Origin: Labilibaculum sp.
GTDB lineage: Bacteria > Bacteroidota > Bacteroidia > Bacteroidales > Marinifilaceae
Assembly: GCA_016760525.1 (NCBI GenBank)
Contig: JAESUW010000122.1
Coordinates: 1 to 38,944 of the forward strand
Direction: 5' to 3'
DNA: 38,944 nucleotides
The position numbers were made by a program, and so were the translations under genes. The notes beneath the pieces are model-generated. The model was not told where the DNA came from. It ran no database searches and worked only from the letters and a program-made list of their open reading frames with translations. Positions 7,293 to 18,607 of the stretch are shown piece by piece; position 1 is the first letter of the stretch; each line of letters opens with the position of its first letter.

Positions 7293-8696
7293 ATGATAGA
7301 TAATACAGAAAACTATCTTGATGATGATGCGCTTACTTCGGTAAGCCGGTTCGAGGAAATGATTAAAGCTAAGACGCTTTACTATTTCGATGTTCATGAA
7401 TTTGAAAGCATCATTGATCACTATATTGAGAAAAGCAATCTTCCAGAAGCGGTTAAAGTTTCGAACATTGCTAATCGACAGCACCCGGGTGCCATTTCTC
7501 TTCAAATTAAAAAAGCTCAGATTCTAGTTGATCGTGAGCAACATCTTGAAGCGCTTGCTATTTTAAAAAGCATACAAAAAATTGAAGCTACCAACAAGGA
7601 GATACTACTACTCGAAGGTAACATCTACAATCATTTAGGGAAATTCGACCTTGCAAAGGAACAGTTTGACGAAGCCTTACAAATCAGCTTCGAGAATCGT
7701 GAAGATTTACTTTTCAGAATAGCACTTGCTTTTGAGCAATTGGCTCAATACGACACAGCCATTGAATATTTGGAAGAAGCCCTGGAAATGGATGAGGAAG
7801 ATTCGGAAGTTCTTTTTGAATTGGGATATTGTTATGAGAGAATTGGCAATGATGAGCAAAGTATTATTGCTTACGAGCAATTTTTAGAGCTTAACCCTTT
7901 CTCGGATAATGCCTGGTACAACATAGGTATCGTTTTTAACCGTTTAGGTAATTTTACAAAAGCTGTTGAAGCATACGAATATACTCTTGCTGTAAACGAC
8001 CAACACAGCAAGGCTTATTTTAATAAAGCCAATGCCCTTGCTAATCAGGGACTTTTTGAAGATGCTGTTAAATGCTACACGGAATACCTTGAGTTTGATG
8101 ATAATCATGCTTCGACCTATTCATACATTGGAGAATGTTTTGAAAAAATGGGGGAACACGAACAAGCATTAATCAACTACGAAACAGCTATTAAAGCTGA
8201 TGAGGATTTAGCCGATCCTTGGTTCGGAATGGGTCTGGTACTCCTGTATCAGGATAAAATAGATGAATGTTTGGTTTATCTTGAAAAAGCGAAAAAATTG
8301 GATGATACGAATTCTGATTATTGGTTTGCCTTAGGATCAGCTTATGCAAGAGCCAATTCTCCTCAAAAAGCCGTTCAGGCATTTAGAGAAGCTATTGATC
8401 TTGATCCTTTCGACACCACCTATCCAATTACTCTTGCCGAATATTATCATCAGAATGAAAATGAAGAAACGGCTATTGATGTATTATTGGAAAGTCTTAG
8501 CCAAACGCCAAATTGTCCGCAATTACTAAGCAATTTAGCTGCTTATTACGCAATAACAGGTGATATTAGTGCTTCTGAGCACTACATTCGTAAAGCAATT
8601 GATATCGATTCGGAGAACATAAATGATATCTTTATTCAATTTCCTGAATTAAAAGAAAACACACACTTTACTAAATTGATTCAAACAAATTTATAA
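7293..8696 (+). CDS. Tetratricopeptide repeat protein
   Basis: 467 aa dominated by TPR units (AWYNIGIVFNRLGNFTKAVEAYEYTLAVN; AYFNKANALANQGLFEDAVKCYTEYLEFD). Confidence 0.9.
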   Translation: MIDNTENYLDDDALTSVSRFEEMIKAKTLYYFDVHEFESIIDHYIEKSNLPEAVKVSNIANRQHPGAISLQIKKAQILVDREQHLEALAILKSIQKIEATNKEILLLEGNIYNHLGKFDLAKEQFDEALQISFENREDLLFRIALAFEQLAQYDTAIEYLEEALEMDEEDSEVLFELGYCYERIGNDEQSIIAYEQFLELNPFSDNAWYNIGIVFNRLGNFTKAVEAYEYTLAVNDQHSKAYFNKANALANQGLFEDAVKCYTEYLEFDDNHASTYSYIGECFEKMGEHEQALINYETAIKADEDLADPWFGMGLVLLYQDKIDECLVYLEKAKKLDDTNSDYWFALGSAYARANSPQKAVQAFREAIDLDPFDTTYPITLAEYYHQNENEETAIDVLLESLSQTPNCPQLLSNLAAYYAITGDISASEHYIRKAIDIDSENINDIFIQFPELKENTHFTKLIQTNL

Positions 8697-8737
8697 TTGA
8701 ATTTGAATCAGGCAAAGCGATCTCAACAAAATATACT

Positions 8738-9676
8738 ATGCCCAGAAAAATAAAAGACTACCTTCTTATTGCCTTAAAAGGAATTGGAATGGGAGCCGCC
8801 GATGTTGTACCTGGAGTTTCAGGTGGAACAATTGCCTTTATCACTGGCATTTACGAGGAATTAATCAACAGCCTTAAGTCCATTAATGGAAGTGCTGCTA
8901 AACTTCTCTTTCAATTTAAACTGAAGGAATTCTGGCAATCAATTAACGGAAATTTTCTGTTAACCTTACTATTCGGAATCTTCTTAAGTTTTTTATCTCT
9001 GGCAAAACTGATTAAGTATTTTCTTGCCGAACAACCGATTTTAATCTGGTCGTTCTTCTTTGGATTAATTGTTGCCTCGGCTATTGTAATTGCCCGTAAA
9101 ATTACGGAGTGGAAATTACGCACTATTATTGCCATGATTATTGGTGTAGGGATCGCCTATATGGTAACAGTGATCACTCCTGCAGAAACACCTACCTCCT
9201 ATTGGTTTCTATTTCTTTCGGGAGCATTAGCAATTTGTGCTATGATTTTACCTGGAATATCCGGAGCTTTCATTTTACTTTTACTGGGAAAATACGAGTA
9301 CATACTGAATGCAGTAAGCACTTTTAAATTAGATGTTATTGCTGTTGTTGGTGCTGGTGCAGTTGTTGGACTTTTGAGTTTTTCAAACTTACTTAGCTGG
9401 CTTTTGAAGAAATACCACAACATGACTATTGGCTTGCTTGCCGGATTCATGATTGGATCTTTGAATAAAGTATGGCCCTGGAAAAATACAGTCTCAACAT
9501 TTATTGACAGACATGGTGTAGAAAAACCTCTGCTTCAGGAAAATATTCTACCTACTGCTTTTGATAAGATCATTGGCCAAGAGTCACAATTGATGTTTGC
9601 AATTCTTTTGGCCATTGCCGGATTTCTGCTAATTTGGATGATGGAAAAATTCTCACCTGAATCAAAAACAAAATAA
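8738..9676 (+). CDS. DUF368 domain membrane protein (family linked to undecaprenyl-phosphate translocation)
   Basis: GIGMGAADVVPGVSGGTIAFITGIYEELINSLKSI and ILPGISGAFILLLLGKYEYIL; multiple transmembrane segments. Confidence 0.9.
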   Translation: MPRKIKDYLLIALKGIGMGAADVVPGVSGGTIAFITGIYEELINSLKSINGSAAKLLFQFKLKEFWQSINGNFLLTLLFGIFLSFLSLAKLIKYFLAEQPILIWSFFFGLIVASAIVIARKITEWKLRTIIAMIIGVGIAYMVTVITPAETPTSYWFLFLSGALAICAMILPGISGAFILLLLGKYEYILNAVSTFKLDVIAVVGAGAVVGLLSFSNLLSWLLKKYHNMTIGLLAGFMIGSLNKVWPWKNTVSTFIDRHGVEKPLLQENILPTAFDKIIGQESQLMFAILLAIAGFLLIWMMEKFSPESKTK

Positions 9677-9677
9677 A

Positions 9678-10418
9678 ATGGATACATTCGGAATTATTGG
9701 TTTCCCATTGGGGCATTCTTTTTCAAAAAAATACTTTACGGATAAGTTTACTGAAGAAAACATAGATGCTTCTTTTTTAAATTTTGAACTTTCGAGCATT
9801 CAGGATTTTACGAACGTATTGGAGCAACAAGCCGATTTAAAAGGATTCTGTGTTACCATTCCATACAAACAAGATGTAATTCAATTTTTAGATGAAATTG
9901 ATCCACTAGCTGAAAGAATTGGTGCTGTTAATTCCGTTCATATTATCCGTGAAAACAAACAAATAAAACTGGTTGGCTACAATACAGATATTCATGGATT
10001 TACCGAATCGCTGCGTATTTTTCTTAGTGAAACGAAACCAAAAGCATTAATTCTTGGAACAGGGGGAGTTTCGAAAGCTGTAGCCACAGGTTTGGAAGAA
10101 ATGGGAATTGAATACCAATTCGTATCCAGAACTGCTTCCCACAAATGCATAAGCTATGAAATGCTTTCCCCGGAACTAATGAGCAATTACCACTTGATTG
10201 TGAACTGTACTCCTTTGGGAACCTTTCCTAAAGATGATGCCTGTCCGGATATTCCGTACGAACAGCTCACAAAAGATCATTTTTTATATGATGTAGTTTA
10301 CAATCCTGCAGAGACTCTTTTCATGAAAAAAGGTGCAGAGCAAGGTGCTAAAACACACAACGGATTAAAAATGCTTCACCTGCAAGCAGAAAAAAACTGG
10401 GAAATCTGGAATAAATAA
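9678..10418 (+). CDS. aroE: Shikimate dehydrogenase
   Basis: FGIIGFPLGHSFSKKYFTDKF, VTIPYKQDVIQFLDEIDPLAERIGAVNSV, LGTGGVSKAVATGL, NCTPLGTFP, NGLKMLHLQAEKNWEIW. Confidence 0.93.
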   Translation: MDTFGIIGFPLGHSFSKKYFTDKFTEENIDASFLNFELSSIQDFTNVLEQQADLKGFCVTIPYKQDVIQFLDEIDPLAERIGAVNSVHIIRENKQIKLVGYNTDIHGFTESLRIFLSETKPKALILGTGGVSKAVATGLEEMGIEYQFVSRTASHKCISYEMLSPELMSNYHLIVNCTPLGTFPKDDACPDIPYEQLTKDHFLYDVVYNPAETLFMKKGAEQGAKTHNGLKMLHLQAEKNWEIWNK

Positions 10419-10766
10419 TTCCTCTTTCGAATCAAAAAATAATAATTTAAAATTCGGCGTACTAATACCTTCATTCAATAGTCTGAAACTCCTGTTAACA
10501 GCTCACAATTCCAGTTCAGCCAAATTGATATTTAATTCGAAACACATTAAGATCTATTCAATAAATTTGAAATTATAGTCAAATAGAGTTTCAGATTCCC
10601 AATTTACGTAATGATGTATTTTGTTTGCTAGAATGCTTTTTATAAATTCACAAGCTAAAGCAAACAATTCCTTTTATTAGAGAAACCAGAGTTTTCTGAT
10701 TTCCAATTTTGGATATTAACAAATCAACCAGGAATTTTATTTACAGTTACTTAGGAAGTAGATCAT

Positions 10767-13139
10767 ATGTCAGACAATAAGGACAAAATTAATCAGCTCT
10801 TCGAGATACAAGAAAATCTGTGGGAAAAACAAGAAGCTCTATCGAATGAGATTAGTGAATTACGACATGAAATAATTCGCTTAAAAAATACCGAAGCAAA
10901 ACCTCTGGCTGAAGAAAACAAAACTGAAATTTTGAATGAAGCTCTTCTTGATGACCTAAAAAATATAGCGTCCCCAATAAAACAGGAAGAACACAAACTT
11001 GAAACGACAAGTGCAATAGCTGCAACACCTCCGAAAGCAAAGAAAGCTCCGAAAGCTCCGAAAGCAAAATCTGATATTGAGAAATTTATTGGTGAAAATC
11101 TGATTAATAAAATTGGTATTGCAATTACCATTATTGGAGTGGCAATTGGTGCAAAATACTCTATTGACAACGATCTTATAAGTCCATTAACCAGAATAAT
11201 TCTGGCTTATTTAACTGGAATTGGACTATTGGGTTTCGGAATAAAATTAAAGCGAAAATATGAAAGCTTTAGCGCCGTTCTGGTTAGTGGAGCCATAGCA
11301 ATCCTATATTTCATCACCTTTATGGCCTATGATTTTTACGGATTATTTCCGCAGGTAATTGCTTTTATCCTCATGCTGATCTTAACTGTATTCACAATTA
11401 TTGCAGCAATCAACTACAACAAACAAGTAATTGCACATATCGGTTTGGTTGGTGCATATGCGGTTCCCTTCCTGTTAAGTGACGGTTCCGGAAAAGTAGT
11501 CGTACTCTTTACTTACATGACAATTATTAATCTGGGTATTCTAATTATCGCATTTAAGAAATACTGGAAAGAATTGCACTACACATCCTTTTCTCTCACT
11601 TGGTTGATCTTCTATTCTTGGTTCAGTGATAAATACGAAACAAGCGAACACTTAGTGATAGGAAGTATTTTTCTAATCGTATTTTTTGCAATCTTTTATT
11701 TACTATTTCTAGCCTATAAATTAGTTCGAAAGGAAAAATTCAACAAAGGCAATTCTCTGCTGCTCATATCCAATTCTTTTATCTTTTTTGGCTTGGGATA
11801 CTCCATCTTATCTCTTCACGATACAGGAGAACATTTATTAGGATTATTTACCCTTATTAATGCGATAATTCACAGTATCGTAAGTATAATCATCTACAAA
11901 CAAAAACTTGCCGATAAGAATATTTTCTATTTGATATCAGGTTTAGTTCTCATATTTATAACCATTGCCTTTCCTATTCAGTTAGACGGAAATTGGGTAA
12001 CTTTATTGTGGGTAAGTGAAGCGGCTCTACTCTTTTGGATCGGAAGAACGAAAAAAGTTTCCATTTACGAAGCCATGTCTTACCCCTTAATGGTACTTGC
12101 GTTCTTTAGTATTTTGCAAGATTGGACCACATTGTATAACACCTACATTGTGGAAGATCCGGAAACAAAAATCACTCTTTTTCTGAATGTTAATTTTCTA
12201 AGCTCGATACTCTTTGTTGCGTCTTTTGGACTCATCAACAGGTTGAATAATAATTCGAAATATCCAAGCTCATTTGGTTCCTGGATTAAAATCACACGAA
12301 TATTATCCTATACAATCCCCGCAATTCTTGTGTTTACATTGTACTATTCTTTCCAATTGGAAATTGGAAACTATTGGAATCAGATAATTAAGGATTCGGC
12401 AATAAGCATTCAGGCAATCGGTGAAGATTACTCGAACTACTATAAAAATTACGACTTAAAAGAGTTTAAAACAATTTGGATTATTAATTATTCTTTACTG
12501 TTTTTCTCTATTCTTTCTTTTGTGAATATCAAGAAATTGAAAAACAAAAAACTGGGCTTTGCAAGTATTGTATTAAGCACAATTACTCTTATCATATTTT
12601 TAACCCAAGGTTTGTATTCACTCAGTGAATTACGAGAAAGCTATATCAATCAAACTTTGTCCGAATATTATCATCGCGGATCTTTCAATATCATTATAAG
12701 ATACGTGGCATTGGCTTTTGCCGGCTTATCCCTTACAGCCATTTACCTGCATATTAATAAGGAATTTAACACCAGAAAATATAAAAAAGCTTTTGAGTTC
12801 TTATTAACTACTTCTATTTTATGGATACTTAGCAGTGAATTGCTTAACTGGATGGACATAAGCGGATCAACACAATCCTACAAGCTTGGACTAAGCATAC
12901 TTTGGGGCTCATATTCCCTACTCCTAATTGCTTATGGCATTTGGAAAAACAAAAAACACATACGAATTGGTGCAATAGGTTTGTTTGCATTAACATTAGC
13001 TAAACTATTCTTTTACGACATCTCTCATTTGAGTACAATTGCAAAAACCATTGTGTTTGTTTCATTAGGAATACTTCTTTTAATCATATCATTCCTGTAC
13101 AACAAATACAAGAGTAATATCTCTGAAGAAGAAGTATAA
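10767..13139 (+). CDS. DUF2339 family multi-pass membrane protein
   Basis: N-terminal coiled coil and KAPKAPKAK linker, then IEKFIGENLINKIGIAITIIGVAIGAKYSIDNDLISPLTRIILAYLTG and many transmembrane helices. Confidence 0.85.
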   Translation: MSDNKDKINQLFEIQENLWEKQEALSNEISELRHEIIRLKNTEAKPLAEENKTEILNEALLDDLKNIASPIKQEEHKLETTSAIAATPPKAKKAPKAPKAKSDIEKFIGENLINKIGIAITIIGVAIGAKYSIDNDLISPLTRIILAYLTGIGLLGFGIKLKRKYESFSAVLVSGAIAILYFITFMAYDFYGLFPQVIAFILMLILTVFTIIAAINYNKQVIAHIGLVGAYAVPFLLSDGSGKVVVLFTYMTIINLGILIIAFKKYWKELHYTSFSLTWLIFYSWFSDKYETSEHLVIGSIFLIVFFAIFYLLFLAYKLVRKEKFNKGNSLLLISNSFIFFGLGYSILSLHDTGEHLLGLFTLINAIIHSIVSIIIYKQKLADKNIFYLISGLVLIFITIAFPIQLDGNWVTLLWVSEAALLFWIGRTKKVSIYEAMSYPLMVLAFFSILQDWTTLYNTYIVEDPETKITLFLNVNFLSSILFVASFGLINRLNNNSKYPSSFGSWIKITRILSYTIPAILVFTLYYSFQLEIGNYWNQIIKDSAISIQAIGEDYSNYYKNYDLKEFKTIWIINYSLLFFSILSFVNIKKLKNKKLGFASIVLSTITLIIFLTQGLYSLSELRESYINQTLSEYYHRGSFNIIIRYVALAFAGLSLTAIYLHINKEFNTRKYKKAFEFLLTTSILWILSSELLNWMDISGSTQSYKLGLSILWGSYSLLLIAYGIWKNKKHIRIGAIGLFALTLAKLFFYDISHLSTIAKTIVFVSLGILLLIISFLYNKYKSNISEEEV

Positions 13140-14433: not shown

Positions 14434-14447
14434 GTTTAAATTTCATG

Positions 14448-14469
14448 TGCCCATAAAGCTTTTTGGGCA
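14448..14469 (+). terminator. Probable hairpin downstream of the DUF3999-like gene
   Basis: TGCCCATAAAGCTTTTTGGGCA imperfect palindrome. Confidence 0.4.
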
Positions 14470-14567
14470 TTTCGAAAAAAACAAGCTCCTTCCCTAGCTA
14501 TTCATACAAAACACAAAGGCTTACATATTTTCTTTTTCTAAAAAATAAACTTTACTGCAGGTATCTT

Positions 14568-14597
14568 TTGTTAATCTGCGTACCTTTCATAACTTTG
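14568..14597 (+). promoter_or_regulatory. Bacteroidota-type promoter for the S8 peptidase gene
   Basis: TTG at 14568-14570, 19-bp spacer, TAACTTTG (TAnnTTTG) at 14590-14597, 38 bp before the ATG. Confidence 0.65.
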
Positions 14598-14635
14598 GAA
14601 ACGCAGTATAAAAAATTCCCCAAAGTCTAACGACC

Positions 14636-17263
14636 ATGGCAGATAACAATAAACCACATTTACTACTAAAAAACCAAATACGAACAATTGAAAGGTTTCC
14701 TAAAAGAGGAATGGTTGTATCGAAGAAGAAAAATGATGAAGAGGAAGAAGAAATTGAGATAAAACCCTATGAATCCAAGAAAAAAACGTTACGAAACAAC
14801 CTTCGAAGTTTTAATAGACATATTTTAGAAAGGCATCAGAATCGAACAATCGATATTCCAGCGCATATTGATTACGTAAAATTATACACTCATGGTGTAT
14901 TCAATGCTAATCTTCAAAAAAAATTCAGAACCACCTATGGTTTATCTGCTGTTAAATTTGAATATTTTAATAAGGTTGTCCTTTGTGCAATTGTAGATGA
15001 AAATGCATTTGAAATATTTAAAGAACATATTAGATTCTTTATTGACACAGAAGCCAATTTTAATCCCCTTCAGACAGATTATTATTTATTAGTTCACATT
15101 GATCGATTTGAATTACTAAGTTCTGATAGAATACTTGAATTTACACGCAATGAAGAAGCTATTGCTGAAATCATTAGCAATACTGAGCTCCCAAATAAAT
15201 CAGACAATATAGAAAAAGCTCTAAATGAATTCCTTAGACAAGAAAAGTTGTTAAGAATTGAATTTGATTATGAAATTAAACTTGATTATTCACTTTTAGT
15301 CTTAAAAAACACGACTGAAGAATTAAACAAACAAATTGTCGACAACTTTGATGTAATATACAAAGTTCAAAGTCACACCTACAAAACAGGTCCTAATCGA
15401 TATGGTTGGCAAAAAAGAAGACCCGATTTTGAAATATTCCCAATTGAAAATACAACGTTAGTAGGAATAATTGATACAGGAATTCAGCAAAATTCACCTC
15501 TACGGAACATTATAGAAAACTTGCAATACGACATTACCAGCGTTGATAATCCATTACCCATCCTGGATAATGAAGGTCATGGAACAGGTATTGCTATGTT
15601 AGCCGCATTGGGAACAGAATACTATGAAAACGAAACAAATAATTTTCATTCTCCAATAAAACTTGTTCCAATTAAGGTCTTAGAAAATTCAAACGGAAAC
15701 TATAGCCTTATTGATTTTGAGAAAGTAATAAGAGAAGCCAATGCGATTGGAGTTCGTATTTTCAACTTATCAATTACTGATTCTAATTGCAAGTTATATA
15801 ATGAAACTGTATCTAAACAAGCTTTTCTTCTTGATAAATTGTCATTTGAACTAGATATCTTATTCATTATAGCAACAGGCAATTTGAGTCCAGATGATAT
15901 AGAATATATGAGAGATAATCCGAATAGCTTACATGATTATCCCAATCATTTTTTTAATCCATATAAGGAGTCGGAACAACATTGTTGTGTTGGAACTAAT
16001 ATACATTCACCGTCAGAATCATATAACAATATCGCTGTTGGAGCAATAGCTGAAAATCTAAATGATAATGAAAGTGATTTAACGTATGCCAAAGAATTAC
16101 CTGCTTATTACTCGAAGAAATTTCATTTGAATTTCGCTGAAAAGGTAAATGGTGTATTCCTTTCGCAGTCTCTTATGAATAAAAACTTTTTTAAACCTGA
16201 TTTGGTAGCTCCTGGAGGTGATGCGATTGCAAGTTTAGCAGGCATGGAAGTTCTTTCAACAAGAGCTGGTCAATTAACAGAATTATCACATGGTACCAGT
16301 AATGCCGCACCATTGGTTGCAAATATTGCTGCTCGTATCTTGAATAAATATCCAGAGTTAAAAGCTCAATCCATAAAGGCTCTCTTAATTAATTCGGCGG
16401 GATTATCTTATAACTCGAACTTTCTGGATGAACCTATTATTAATATAAAAGATGATTTTGCAAGAGAGGAATTTAAAAAGTCAATAGAAGAACTAAACAA
16501 CTCCGAGAGAAACAAATTATCGCGAATTATTAGTAAAGACAGATTATTTAAATACCTAACCGGTCACGGTTTACCAGATCAAACAAAAGCACTCTATTCA
16601 AATGAAAACTCTGCCACTCTTGTGGTAGAAGAATCGATTAAAGTCGATTGCCATAAGGGATTAATTTTAAAAATTCCGAAATATCTTAATAAGCTTTCAA
16701 ATCAAGAAAAAAAATCAGTTGCAAACATTACTGCAACTTTATGCTATAGTTTCGATCCAATTTTCAATAATTTCCTGGCCTATAATCCAATCCATATAAG
16801 CTTTGCATTTTTTAATCCTGTTGATGATGACTTATCAAAAAGTATAGATTTAATCGCAGGTTACACAAGTCAACAAAAAGATCGAGATCCAAACCTAAAG
16901 AACCGTGTGGAAGAAGCAAACACTAACCGTAAATTTAAAACTGGAATAACCTGGTCAGAAGACTATTCTCCAATTGGTTCAAAAATGTTTTCTAATACCC
17001 AAAAACTATACATACCATTTCGAATTAAAGATTTAAACAAAATCAAAAACGAGTTGAATATTGTGGTTCGATGCACCTGTAAAAAAGATATAGATCCAGA
17101 AATATTAAACCGAATTAAATTAAATCCACATCCATTTTCATTAGTAATAAGAATTGAGGAGAAAAAAGTTAACAACACCCTATCAGGACATCTTTACCAT
17201 AAACTTGATGCAATAAATACCCTCGAAGTAATAGCAGAAGTAGACCTCGAAGCAGAAGTTTAG
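14636..17263 (+). CDS. S8 family subtilisin-like serine protease, no signal peptide (IetS-like)
   Basis: Catalytic triad motifs: VGIIDTGIQ (Asp), DNEGHGTGIAMLAA (His), LSHGTSNAAPLVANIAARIL (Ser). Long N-terminal cytosolic domain; partnered with an AAA ATPase. Confidence 0.88.
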   Translation: MADNNKPHLLLKNQIRTIERFPKRGMVVSKKKNDEEEEEIEIKPYESKKKTLRNNLRSFNRHILERHQNRTIDIPAHIDYVKLYTHGVFNANLQKKFRTTYGLSAVKFEYFNKVVLCAIVDENAFEIFKEHIRFFIDTEANFNPLQTDYYLLVHIDRFELLSSDRILEFTRNEEAIAEIISNTELPNKSDNIEKALNEFLRQEKLLRIEFDYEIKLDYSLLVLKNTTEELNKQIVDNFDVIYKVQSHTYKTGPNRYGWQKRRPDFEIFPIENTTLVGIIDTGIQQNSPLRNIIENLQYDITSVDNPLPILDNEGHGTGIAMLAALGTEYYENETNNFHSPIKLVPIKVLENSNGNYSLIDFEKVIREANAIGVRIFNLSITDSNCKLYNETVSKQAFLLDKLSFELDILFIIATGNLSPDDIEYMRDNPNSLHDYPNHFFNPYKESEQHCCVGTNIHSPSESYNNIAVGAIAENLNDNESDLTYAKELPAYYSKKFHLNFAEKVNGVFLSQSLMNKNFFKPDLVAPGGDAIASLAGMEVLSTRAGQLTELSHGTSNAAPLVANIAARILNKYPELKAQSIKALLINSAGLSYNSNFLDEPIINIKDDFAREEFKKSIEELNNSERNKLSRIISKDRLFKYLTGHGLPDQTKALYSNENSATLVVEESIKVDCHKGLILKIPKYLNKLSNQEKKSVANITATLCYSFDPIFNNFLAYNPIHISFAFFNPVDDDLSKSIDLIAGYTSQQKDRDPNLKNRVEEANTNRKFKTGITWSEDYSPIGSKMFSNTQKLYIPFRIKDLNKIKNELNIVVRCTCKKDIDPEILNRIKLNPHPFSLVIRIEEKKVNNTLSGHLYHKLDAINTLEVIAEVDLEAEV

Positions 17264-18270
17264 ACTTTTTCTTTTAAGATTAACTCTTTTAAAATTGCAG
17301 AATCAAGGTATAGATTAGGTTTTTCTACATCCTTTAAACCAAACAGTGTTCTTTTGATAGCTGTTATGATTGATCTTTGAATCAAATAAAAGGATAATCC
17401 TTCGGATAACTTAATAATTTCAGCCAGTTCCTTTTTGGCACGAAATTTAAAAGGTGATTTAGTCAAAGTTTTTTCAATCAACTCTTGTATCTGAGAATTG
17501 CTTGGCAAACCCAAATTAATCGTCATGTCAAACCTGCGCAATAAAGCTTCATCAATCATTTGCATCTGATTGGTCGCAGCAATAACAATACTATTCTGAG
17601 GTAAATAATCAAAGAGCTGAAGAATAGTGTTAACTACACGTTTCATTTCGCCATGATCCTGACTATAATCCCTTACTTTACCAATAGAATCAAACTCATC
17701 GAAGAAAATAATGCAATTTTCACTGGCCGCTTGTCTGAATAATTTCGATAGATTCTTACTGGTTTCACCCAATTTTGAAGAAACAATGGCACCTAAATTC
17801 ACCACATACATCATCATATCCAACTCGCCGGCTAGTACGTATGAAGCCAATGTTTTTCCACAACCCGATGGGCCATGAAAAAGAATACGGTTTGAAACAG
17901 GTAAATCGAATTTGTTTAGCAATTCAATATCACGATGCTCTTGCACGAAATAAGTTAATTCCTCTTTGATGCCAGCAGAACAAACCAAATTTTCAAAAGA
18001 ATAATCTGAAGTGAGTTTTTCAATGATCAATTCATTTAATGCACGATCATCTTCTTTTAAATAATATTTTTTGGATCCTACAGTCGCTAAACCCTTAGTT
18101 TGTTGTGCGCGTAACCCTTCCTTTAGTATCGATTGTAACTGTAAAGCCAGGTTCACTTTTTTAGTTTGCCGTGAATGCTCTATCAATTTACTCAATACTT
18201 CCAAAAGTTGATCTTGATCATTCTCAAGACCAAACCTTGCAATATCCTTTATGTAATCAGCTTGACTCAT
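17260..18270 (-). CDS. AAA family ATPase (IetA-like partner of the S8 peptidase)
   Basis: Walker A FHGPSGCGKTLASYVL, Walker B CIIFFDEFDSIG, sensor IVIAATNQ, arginine finger region EALLRRFDMTINLGLP. Confidence 0.9.
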   Translation of the reverse strand: MSQADYIKDIARFGLENDQDQLLEVLSKLIEHSRQTKKVNLALQLQSILKEGLRAQQTKGLATVGSKKYYLKEDDRALNELIIEKLTSDYSFENLVCSAGIKEELTYFVQEHRDIELLNKFDLPVSNRILFHGPSGCGKTLASYVLAGELDMMMYVVNLGAIVSSKLGETSKNLSKLFRQAASENCIIFFDEFDSIGKVRDYSQDHGEMKRVVNTILQLFDYLPQNSIVIAATNQMQMIDEALLRRFDMTINLGLPSNSQIQELIEKTLTKSPFKFRAKKELAEIIKLSEGLSFYLIQRSIITAIKRTLFGLKDVEKPNLYLDSAILKELILKEKV

Positions 18271-18286
18271 TTTGTTCTTCTATCAG

Positions 18287-18294
18287 CAAATTTA
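18287..18294 (-). promoter_or_regulatory. Possible -7 element for the AAA ATPase gene
   Basis: Reverse strand reads TAAATTTG (TAnnTTTG); the -33 TTG is not well formed. Confidence 0.35.
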
Positions 18295-18607
18295 GTCAAT
18301 TATCTTGATTCTGGAAATCCTAATCAAATAAAACTATGATACTATCGTCGGCATGGAAAAATAGTTTAAGTTCGTAAAAAATATGATTAAAATTTACCGT
18401 AACTAAAAATAAAAAAACACTTTGATGAATAAAGCCTAATCAAGCAAACTCCCACCAGCTACTTCACCTACCACACATTCTAGTCGGTAAAATTAGAAAC
18501 ATTACTCATTTTTTGGAAGACTAGCCAAGACCAAAGATCACCCCGAGTAGTCTTTGTTTATACCCCACACTCTCTCCTCTCAAATACAAGAAAAATGTAA
18601 CCAATCC

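Follow-up and report, generated by a model that had tools for sequence, protein, structure and literature searches.

A convergent subtype of the IetAS protease–ATPase pair in Labilibaculum

What does a subtilisin-like protease do when its gene ends in that of an AAA ATPase, tail to tail, in the midst of housekeeping genes? A preliminary description of the window (the whole stretch of DNA analysed, 38,944 nucleotides; contig C85 of a Labilibaculum genome that is 63% complete) had read such a pair as an acquired chromosomal relative of the IetAS module. The pair comprises the following elements:

14636–17263, + strand: ietS-like S8 protease, 875 aa, with an N-terminal region (1–270), a subtilase domain (273–592) and a C-terminal region running into a helix and acidic tail
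15473–15475, + strand: codon of catalytic Asp280, invariant in 15 relatives
15578–15580, + strand: codon of catalytic His315, likewise invariant
16298–16300, + strand: codon of catalytic Ser555, likewise invariant
17243–17260, + strand: acidic C-terminal tail of the protease (DLEAEV), which doubles as the 3′ exchange junction with genome G003
17260–17263, both strands: 4-bp overlap of the stop codons (TTAG / CTAA), which leaves a terminator no room between the genes
17260–18270, − strand: ietA-like AAA ATPase, 336 aa, with an N-terminal three-helix bundle (3–57) and an AAA module
17851–17874, − strand: Walker A, GPSGCGKT (residues 133–140), intact
17689–17712, − strand: Walker B, IIFFDEFD (residues 187–194; IIFFDEFDS in its longer form), intact
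17533–17538, − strand: arginine-finger residues R245–R246 (RRFD), intact
17773–17775, − strand: codon of Lys166, which in pore loop 1 takes the place of the F or Y of most tandem IetAs

Pfam identifies the protease as a Peptidase_S8 (PF00082, 3.2e-34, residues 273–592) and the ATPase as an AAA protein (PF00004, 7e-32, residues 129–254). The triad residues D280, H315 and S555, together with N416, are preserved here and do not vary among the 15 convergent relatives, the protease N-terminus as read from the sequence has no hydrophobic signal-like stretch, and the Walker and arginine-finger motifs of the ATPase are confirmed. About the two genes, their motifs and the lack of a signal peptide the preliminary description was correct, as it was about the housekeeping flanks: DUF2339 and DUF3999 adjoin the pair at one end, RNase H and TruA at the opposite end. 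The modelled ATPase (pLDDT 82) has a three-helix bundle at its N-terminus; the modelled protease (pLDDT 71) has its last helix at residues 853–874 and drops to low confidence in its final ten residues. The ATPase fold matches the AAA modules of p97, PAN, FtsH and Vps4-like proteins; a PDB sequence search returned no IetAS structure, and fold searches gave generic subtilisins and AAA modules.

The proposed IetAS identity stood when tested with the PADLOC profiles and fell short of the NCBIfam thresholds. The protease matches the PADLOC IetS model (PDLC02198, 8.9e-36, residues 213–767) and the ATPase the IetA model (PDLC02196, 1.3e-72, residues 4–320), over most of both proteins. The NCBIfam scores, 87 bits for IteS (NF042956, equivalog cut-off 900) and 201 bits for IteA (NF042959, cut-off 510), lie far under the cut-offs, so that the pair is divergent and is not filed as IteA/IteS proper. 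Like IetAS, exemplified by ietA-ietS of pTiC58, the pair joins an AAA ATPase to a cytosolic S8 protease of similar size, with adjacent genes, intact catalytic and ATPase motifs and a mobile, patchy distribution. Unlike IetAS, it has its ATPase only about 31–36% identical to the family's (about 31–34% to plasmid IetAs of the kind that has been tested), with a lysine in pore loop 1, and its protease has an acidic tail and an acidic N-terminal linker. Moreover, while every other sampled member is a one-strand operon with the ATPase gene ahead of the protease gene, the window pair is convergent and is therefore filed as a separate IetAS subtype.

IetAS has been catalogued widely, and our literature searches found no paper on its mechanism among those they covered. 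The role best tested among homologues is that of a toxin–antitoxin pair: in the tandem pairs Mycoplasma TA132/133 (PMC8562856) and S026-S025 of SGI1 (PMC5006074) the ATPase, as antitoxin, relieves the toxicity of the protease, a role that the preliminary description did not state. Both protein families are common to these pairs and ours; however, the former are operons with the antitoxin gene first, whereas each gene of the convergent pair has a promoter-like site of its own.

Is the tail-to-tail layout, which had been called unusual, peculiar to this locus? IetA-like proteins were sampled first from 396 genomes of the phylum and then at class and order level and from viral contigs, and S8 partners were located in the fetched neighbourhoods by an iterated profile; a scan of genome contigs with the protease alone had matched only Labilibaculum manganireducens, so profile searches were needed. 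All 15 pairs with an ATPase near that of the window (about 420–715 bits) are convergent, with stop overlaps of 4–6 bp in seven and gaps of 0–33 bp in eight, whereas all 34 remaining pairs (about 104–162 bits; 28 Bacteroidota genome loci and six viral contigs) are tandem with the ATPase first. The tandem order also holds for the plasmid pairs of Pseudomonas, Nitrosospira and Agrobacterium (3/3). The maximum-likelihood tree unites the convergent ATPases in a single clade (97/90), which sits on a long stem and which two phage proteins join (100/100). Convergent IetAS is a distinct subtype, and its layout, which is clade-wide, shows that a two-gene IetAS can persist without an operon. Since the convergent pairs all belong to one lineage, traits linked to the layout are not mutually independent. 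As an IetAS relative the window pair is ordinary; what is new is the convergent subtype, its exchangeable proteases and the orphan ATPases carried by phages.

Two further convergent loci have neighbours of their own. Genome G002 holds a second convergent locus, whose IetAS pair has diverged (L049:6344-10272), next to HNH nuclease and Vsr endonuclease genes, and the convergent pair of G683 is flanked, judged by eye, by two genes that look like AbiEi/AbiEii and by a gene for a 1705-aa protein (L169:1848-3439 and 7498-12615).

How the pair came to lie between housekeeping genes was addressed by comparing the same site in related genomes:

14434–18607, both strands: hotspot whose content varies, between DUF3999 and rnh-truA; it has counterparts in L047, L048 and L050-L054
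14530–18559, both strands: mobile cassette

The pair is present at this site in G000, G003 and G005 and absent in G004, G006, G007, G008 and, as far as this site is concerned, G002, so that it varies between constant flanks, the comparison that the preliminary description had proposed. In G004 the site is empty, with 245 bp only; G006 and G002 carry an HTH/beta-lactamase-like/AraC/hydrolase block, G005, of the same genus, carries that block plus the pair, G008 a TIR-domain protein and G007 a SIR2-STAND-type protein. The hotspot alternates defence-type with other cargo. The cassette is a recent horizontal acquisition as a two-gene unit, because the block is 97.2% identical to that of G005 whereas its flanks are only 78–81% identical. 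The acquisition that had been proposed is therefore upheld on these grounds, while the argument first offered for it, an AT-rich flank, was rejected: 18290–18600 is indeed non-coding, but its GC content of 30–33% is ordinary here and no AT-richer than the surrounding genes. In substance the earlier reading is supported. In two congeners the TIR and SIR2 cargo genes are adjoined by a protein of 330–331 aa without a Pfam match (L053:3883-4878, L054:7279-8271).

Upstream of each gene lies a promoter-like site:

14567–14597, + strand: predicted Bacteroidota-type protease promoter, TTTG (14567–14570), 19 nt, TAACTTTG (14590–14597), with the ATG 38 nt on
18287–18317, − strand: weaker promoter-like site of the ATPase, TTTC, 19 nt, TAAATTTG, with the ATG 16 nt on

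The predicted protease promoter, TTTG-N19-TANNTTTG, has 10/10 consensus letters, a match reached by 0.05% of shuffled upstream sequences, while the ATPase site has 9/10, which 20% of shuffles reach and which is therefore weak alone. Both sites recur in G005 and G003; the Labilibaculum cassettes are the only convergent loci in which the consensus stands out clearly. Scans for sigma-70 promoters and terminators gave nothing beyond chance, including a terminator-like hairpin at 16738–16717 (− strand), which was rejected as within chance. As the terminator scan found no terminator-like site at the gene junction, the protease and ATPase transcripts probably overlap at their 3′ ends, an arrangement of bacterial transcription that has been reviewed (PMC7154746), and the two genes may be coupled through these overlapping ends.

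The proteins of the convergent clade have features of their own. The last 15 residues carry a net charge of −4 to −7 in 15/15 convergent proteases, whereas 33 tandem proteases average −0.9, and an acidic N-terminal linker and a KPHLxF-like start are common to the convergent proteases. In pore loop 1 (GAIVSSKLGET) the lysine is found in all 15 convergent ATPases, where tandem IetAs mostly have F or Y and some L. The idea that this lysine marks convergent pairs alone was rejected, since the residue also occurs in the two phage orphans and in 7/7 solo ATPases. The latter are short AAA ATPases (243–248 aa) that are widespread in the Marinifilaceae and occur across Labilibaculum and its relatives (for instance L056:3454-4188, G000 contig C138; L022-L027). 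They share the SKLGET pore loop with the window ATPase, and the AAA modules of the convergent ATPases and of these solo ATPases group together, apart from those of all tandem IetAs (100/100), in an alignment whose shorter length leaves the convergent group itself not resolved as one clade. The convergent ATPases may thus be of different AAA ancestry, or both groups may have kept different ancestral states, and the mechanism may differ from that of tandem IetAs. The window ATPase does not itself fall in the solo class: unlike these proteins, which have neither an N-terminal helical domain nor a protease partner, it is 336 aa long, carries the N-terminal bundle and has a protease partner that is conserved.

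Taken together, the pair is rather probably an acquired chromosomal IetAS module of the convergent subtype, in which the protease would be the toxin and the ATPase the antitoxin of a defence system. The toxin and antitoxin roles are assigned by analogy with the tested homologues, and the family, the neighbourhood and the transfer of the pair suggest the role in defence. The cytosolic IetS-like protease would most likely be held inactive by binding of the IetA-like ATPase; phage invasion or loss of the element would upset the balance between the two and free the protease, which would then cleave proteins of the cell or the invader and stop the infected cell. Several points speak against this explanation: identity to the plasmid IetAs is low and the NCBIfam cut-offs lie far off, the AAA module groups with the short solo ATPases and not with tandem IetAs, and toxin and antitoxin are transcribed separately, which is odd for such a pair.

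The ATPase might instead activate the protease rather than restrain it, acting as an unfoldase that feeds it phage or damaged proteins like a split FtsH- or PAN-like machine. Although the AAA fold matches and the intact Walker motifs and arginine fingers would suit such a task, the aromatic residue commonly used for threading is replaced by lysine in pore loop 1 throughout the clade, phages carry the ATPase alone, and the homologous ATPase relieves the toxicity of its protease (PMC8562856, PMC5006074); we regard this alternative as unlikely. That the two genes are mere chance neighbours with no joint function, as their opposite strands and separate promoter-like sites might suggest, is highly improbable, given that 15/15 loci from many Bacteroidota families retain the pairing, with an overlap or a short gap, and that the genes moved together.

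The module could also serve mainly to stabilise its own mobile element by addiction; defence against phages would then be secondary, if it occurs at all. Such a role in stability is described for the island pair of SGI1 (PMC5006074) and, in PMC8562856, which cites Yamamoto 2009, for the plasmid pair of pTiC58, and some convergent pairs adjoin genes that by eye look like tyrosine recombinases (L119, L134, L135). The window cassette, however, is a bare two-gene unit without an integrase, at a site that in other congeners is taken by defence-type genes (TIR, SIR2), and we consider addiction as the main function to be distinctly unlikely.

If the ATPase is an antitoxin, as we favour, which parts of the protease does it need? 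G003 has the same site and the same protease promoter region, and its ATPase is 99.1% identical to that of the window at the amino acid level, whereas the proteases share 33.7% identity and their interiors only about 33%; at the base level, identity is kept in the first about 9 and the last about 6 protease codons and from there on through the ATPase gene. The ATPase tree groups the window with G005 and G003 (100/99), a grouping that the protease data reject (log-likelihood 103 lower, AU p about 1e-127). One ATPase allele has thus stood beside two very different proteases: the exchange swapped the protease as a whole and left its promoter and the neighbouring ATPase allele in place. Across the clade, ATPases that are 60–70% identical pair with proteases that are 35% identical on average, versus 53% for tandem pairs in the same ATPase range, in which only four pairs fall. 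The replacement points to the two ends of the protease as the parts that the ATPase needs. The conserved ends, the KPHLxF-like start and the C-terminal helix with its acidic tail, would fit a docking surface common to the proteases, on which the ATPase may dock.

A full-length ATPase of the convergent lineage, 52–54% identical to the window ATPase, is also encoded on each of two related phage contigs (52.5 and 50.6 kb), whose tail genes include one for the tape measure. Searches over the whole of both contigs, which may be incomplete, with the clade profile and the Pfam model found no S8 protease. The dN/dS between the two phage ATPases is about 0.11, which indicates purifying selection and thus a gene whose product is still functional. 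Other systems provide examples of antitoxin mimics in phages; DarTG, for example, is countered by one (PMC11481870), and here too a phage bears a lone relative of a putative host antitoxin. By analogy with such mimics, and because the ATPase is the antitoxin in the tested homologues (PMC8562856, PMC5006074), it is a reasonable hypothesis that the orphan ATPases are antitoxin mimics; they may otherwise serve an unrelated role. They offer a direct test of counter-defence. On a broader and more tentative reading, convergent IetAS might be a lineage of toxin–antitoxin-type defence whose ATPase holds interchangeable, fast-diverging proteases by their ends, and tailed phages might have captured this ATPase by itself as a mimic that disarms the lineage. 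In both IMG/VR phage contigs the orphan gene (L136:6001-6999 and L137:6001-7002) lies close to the tape-measure gene.
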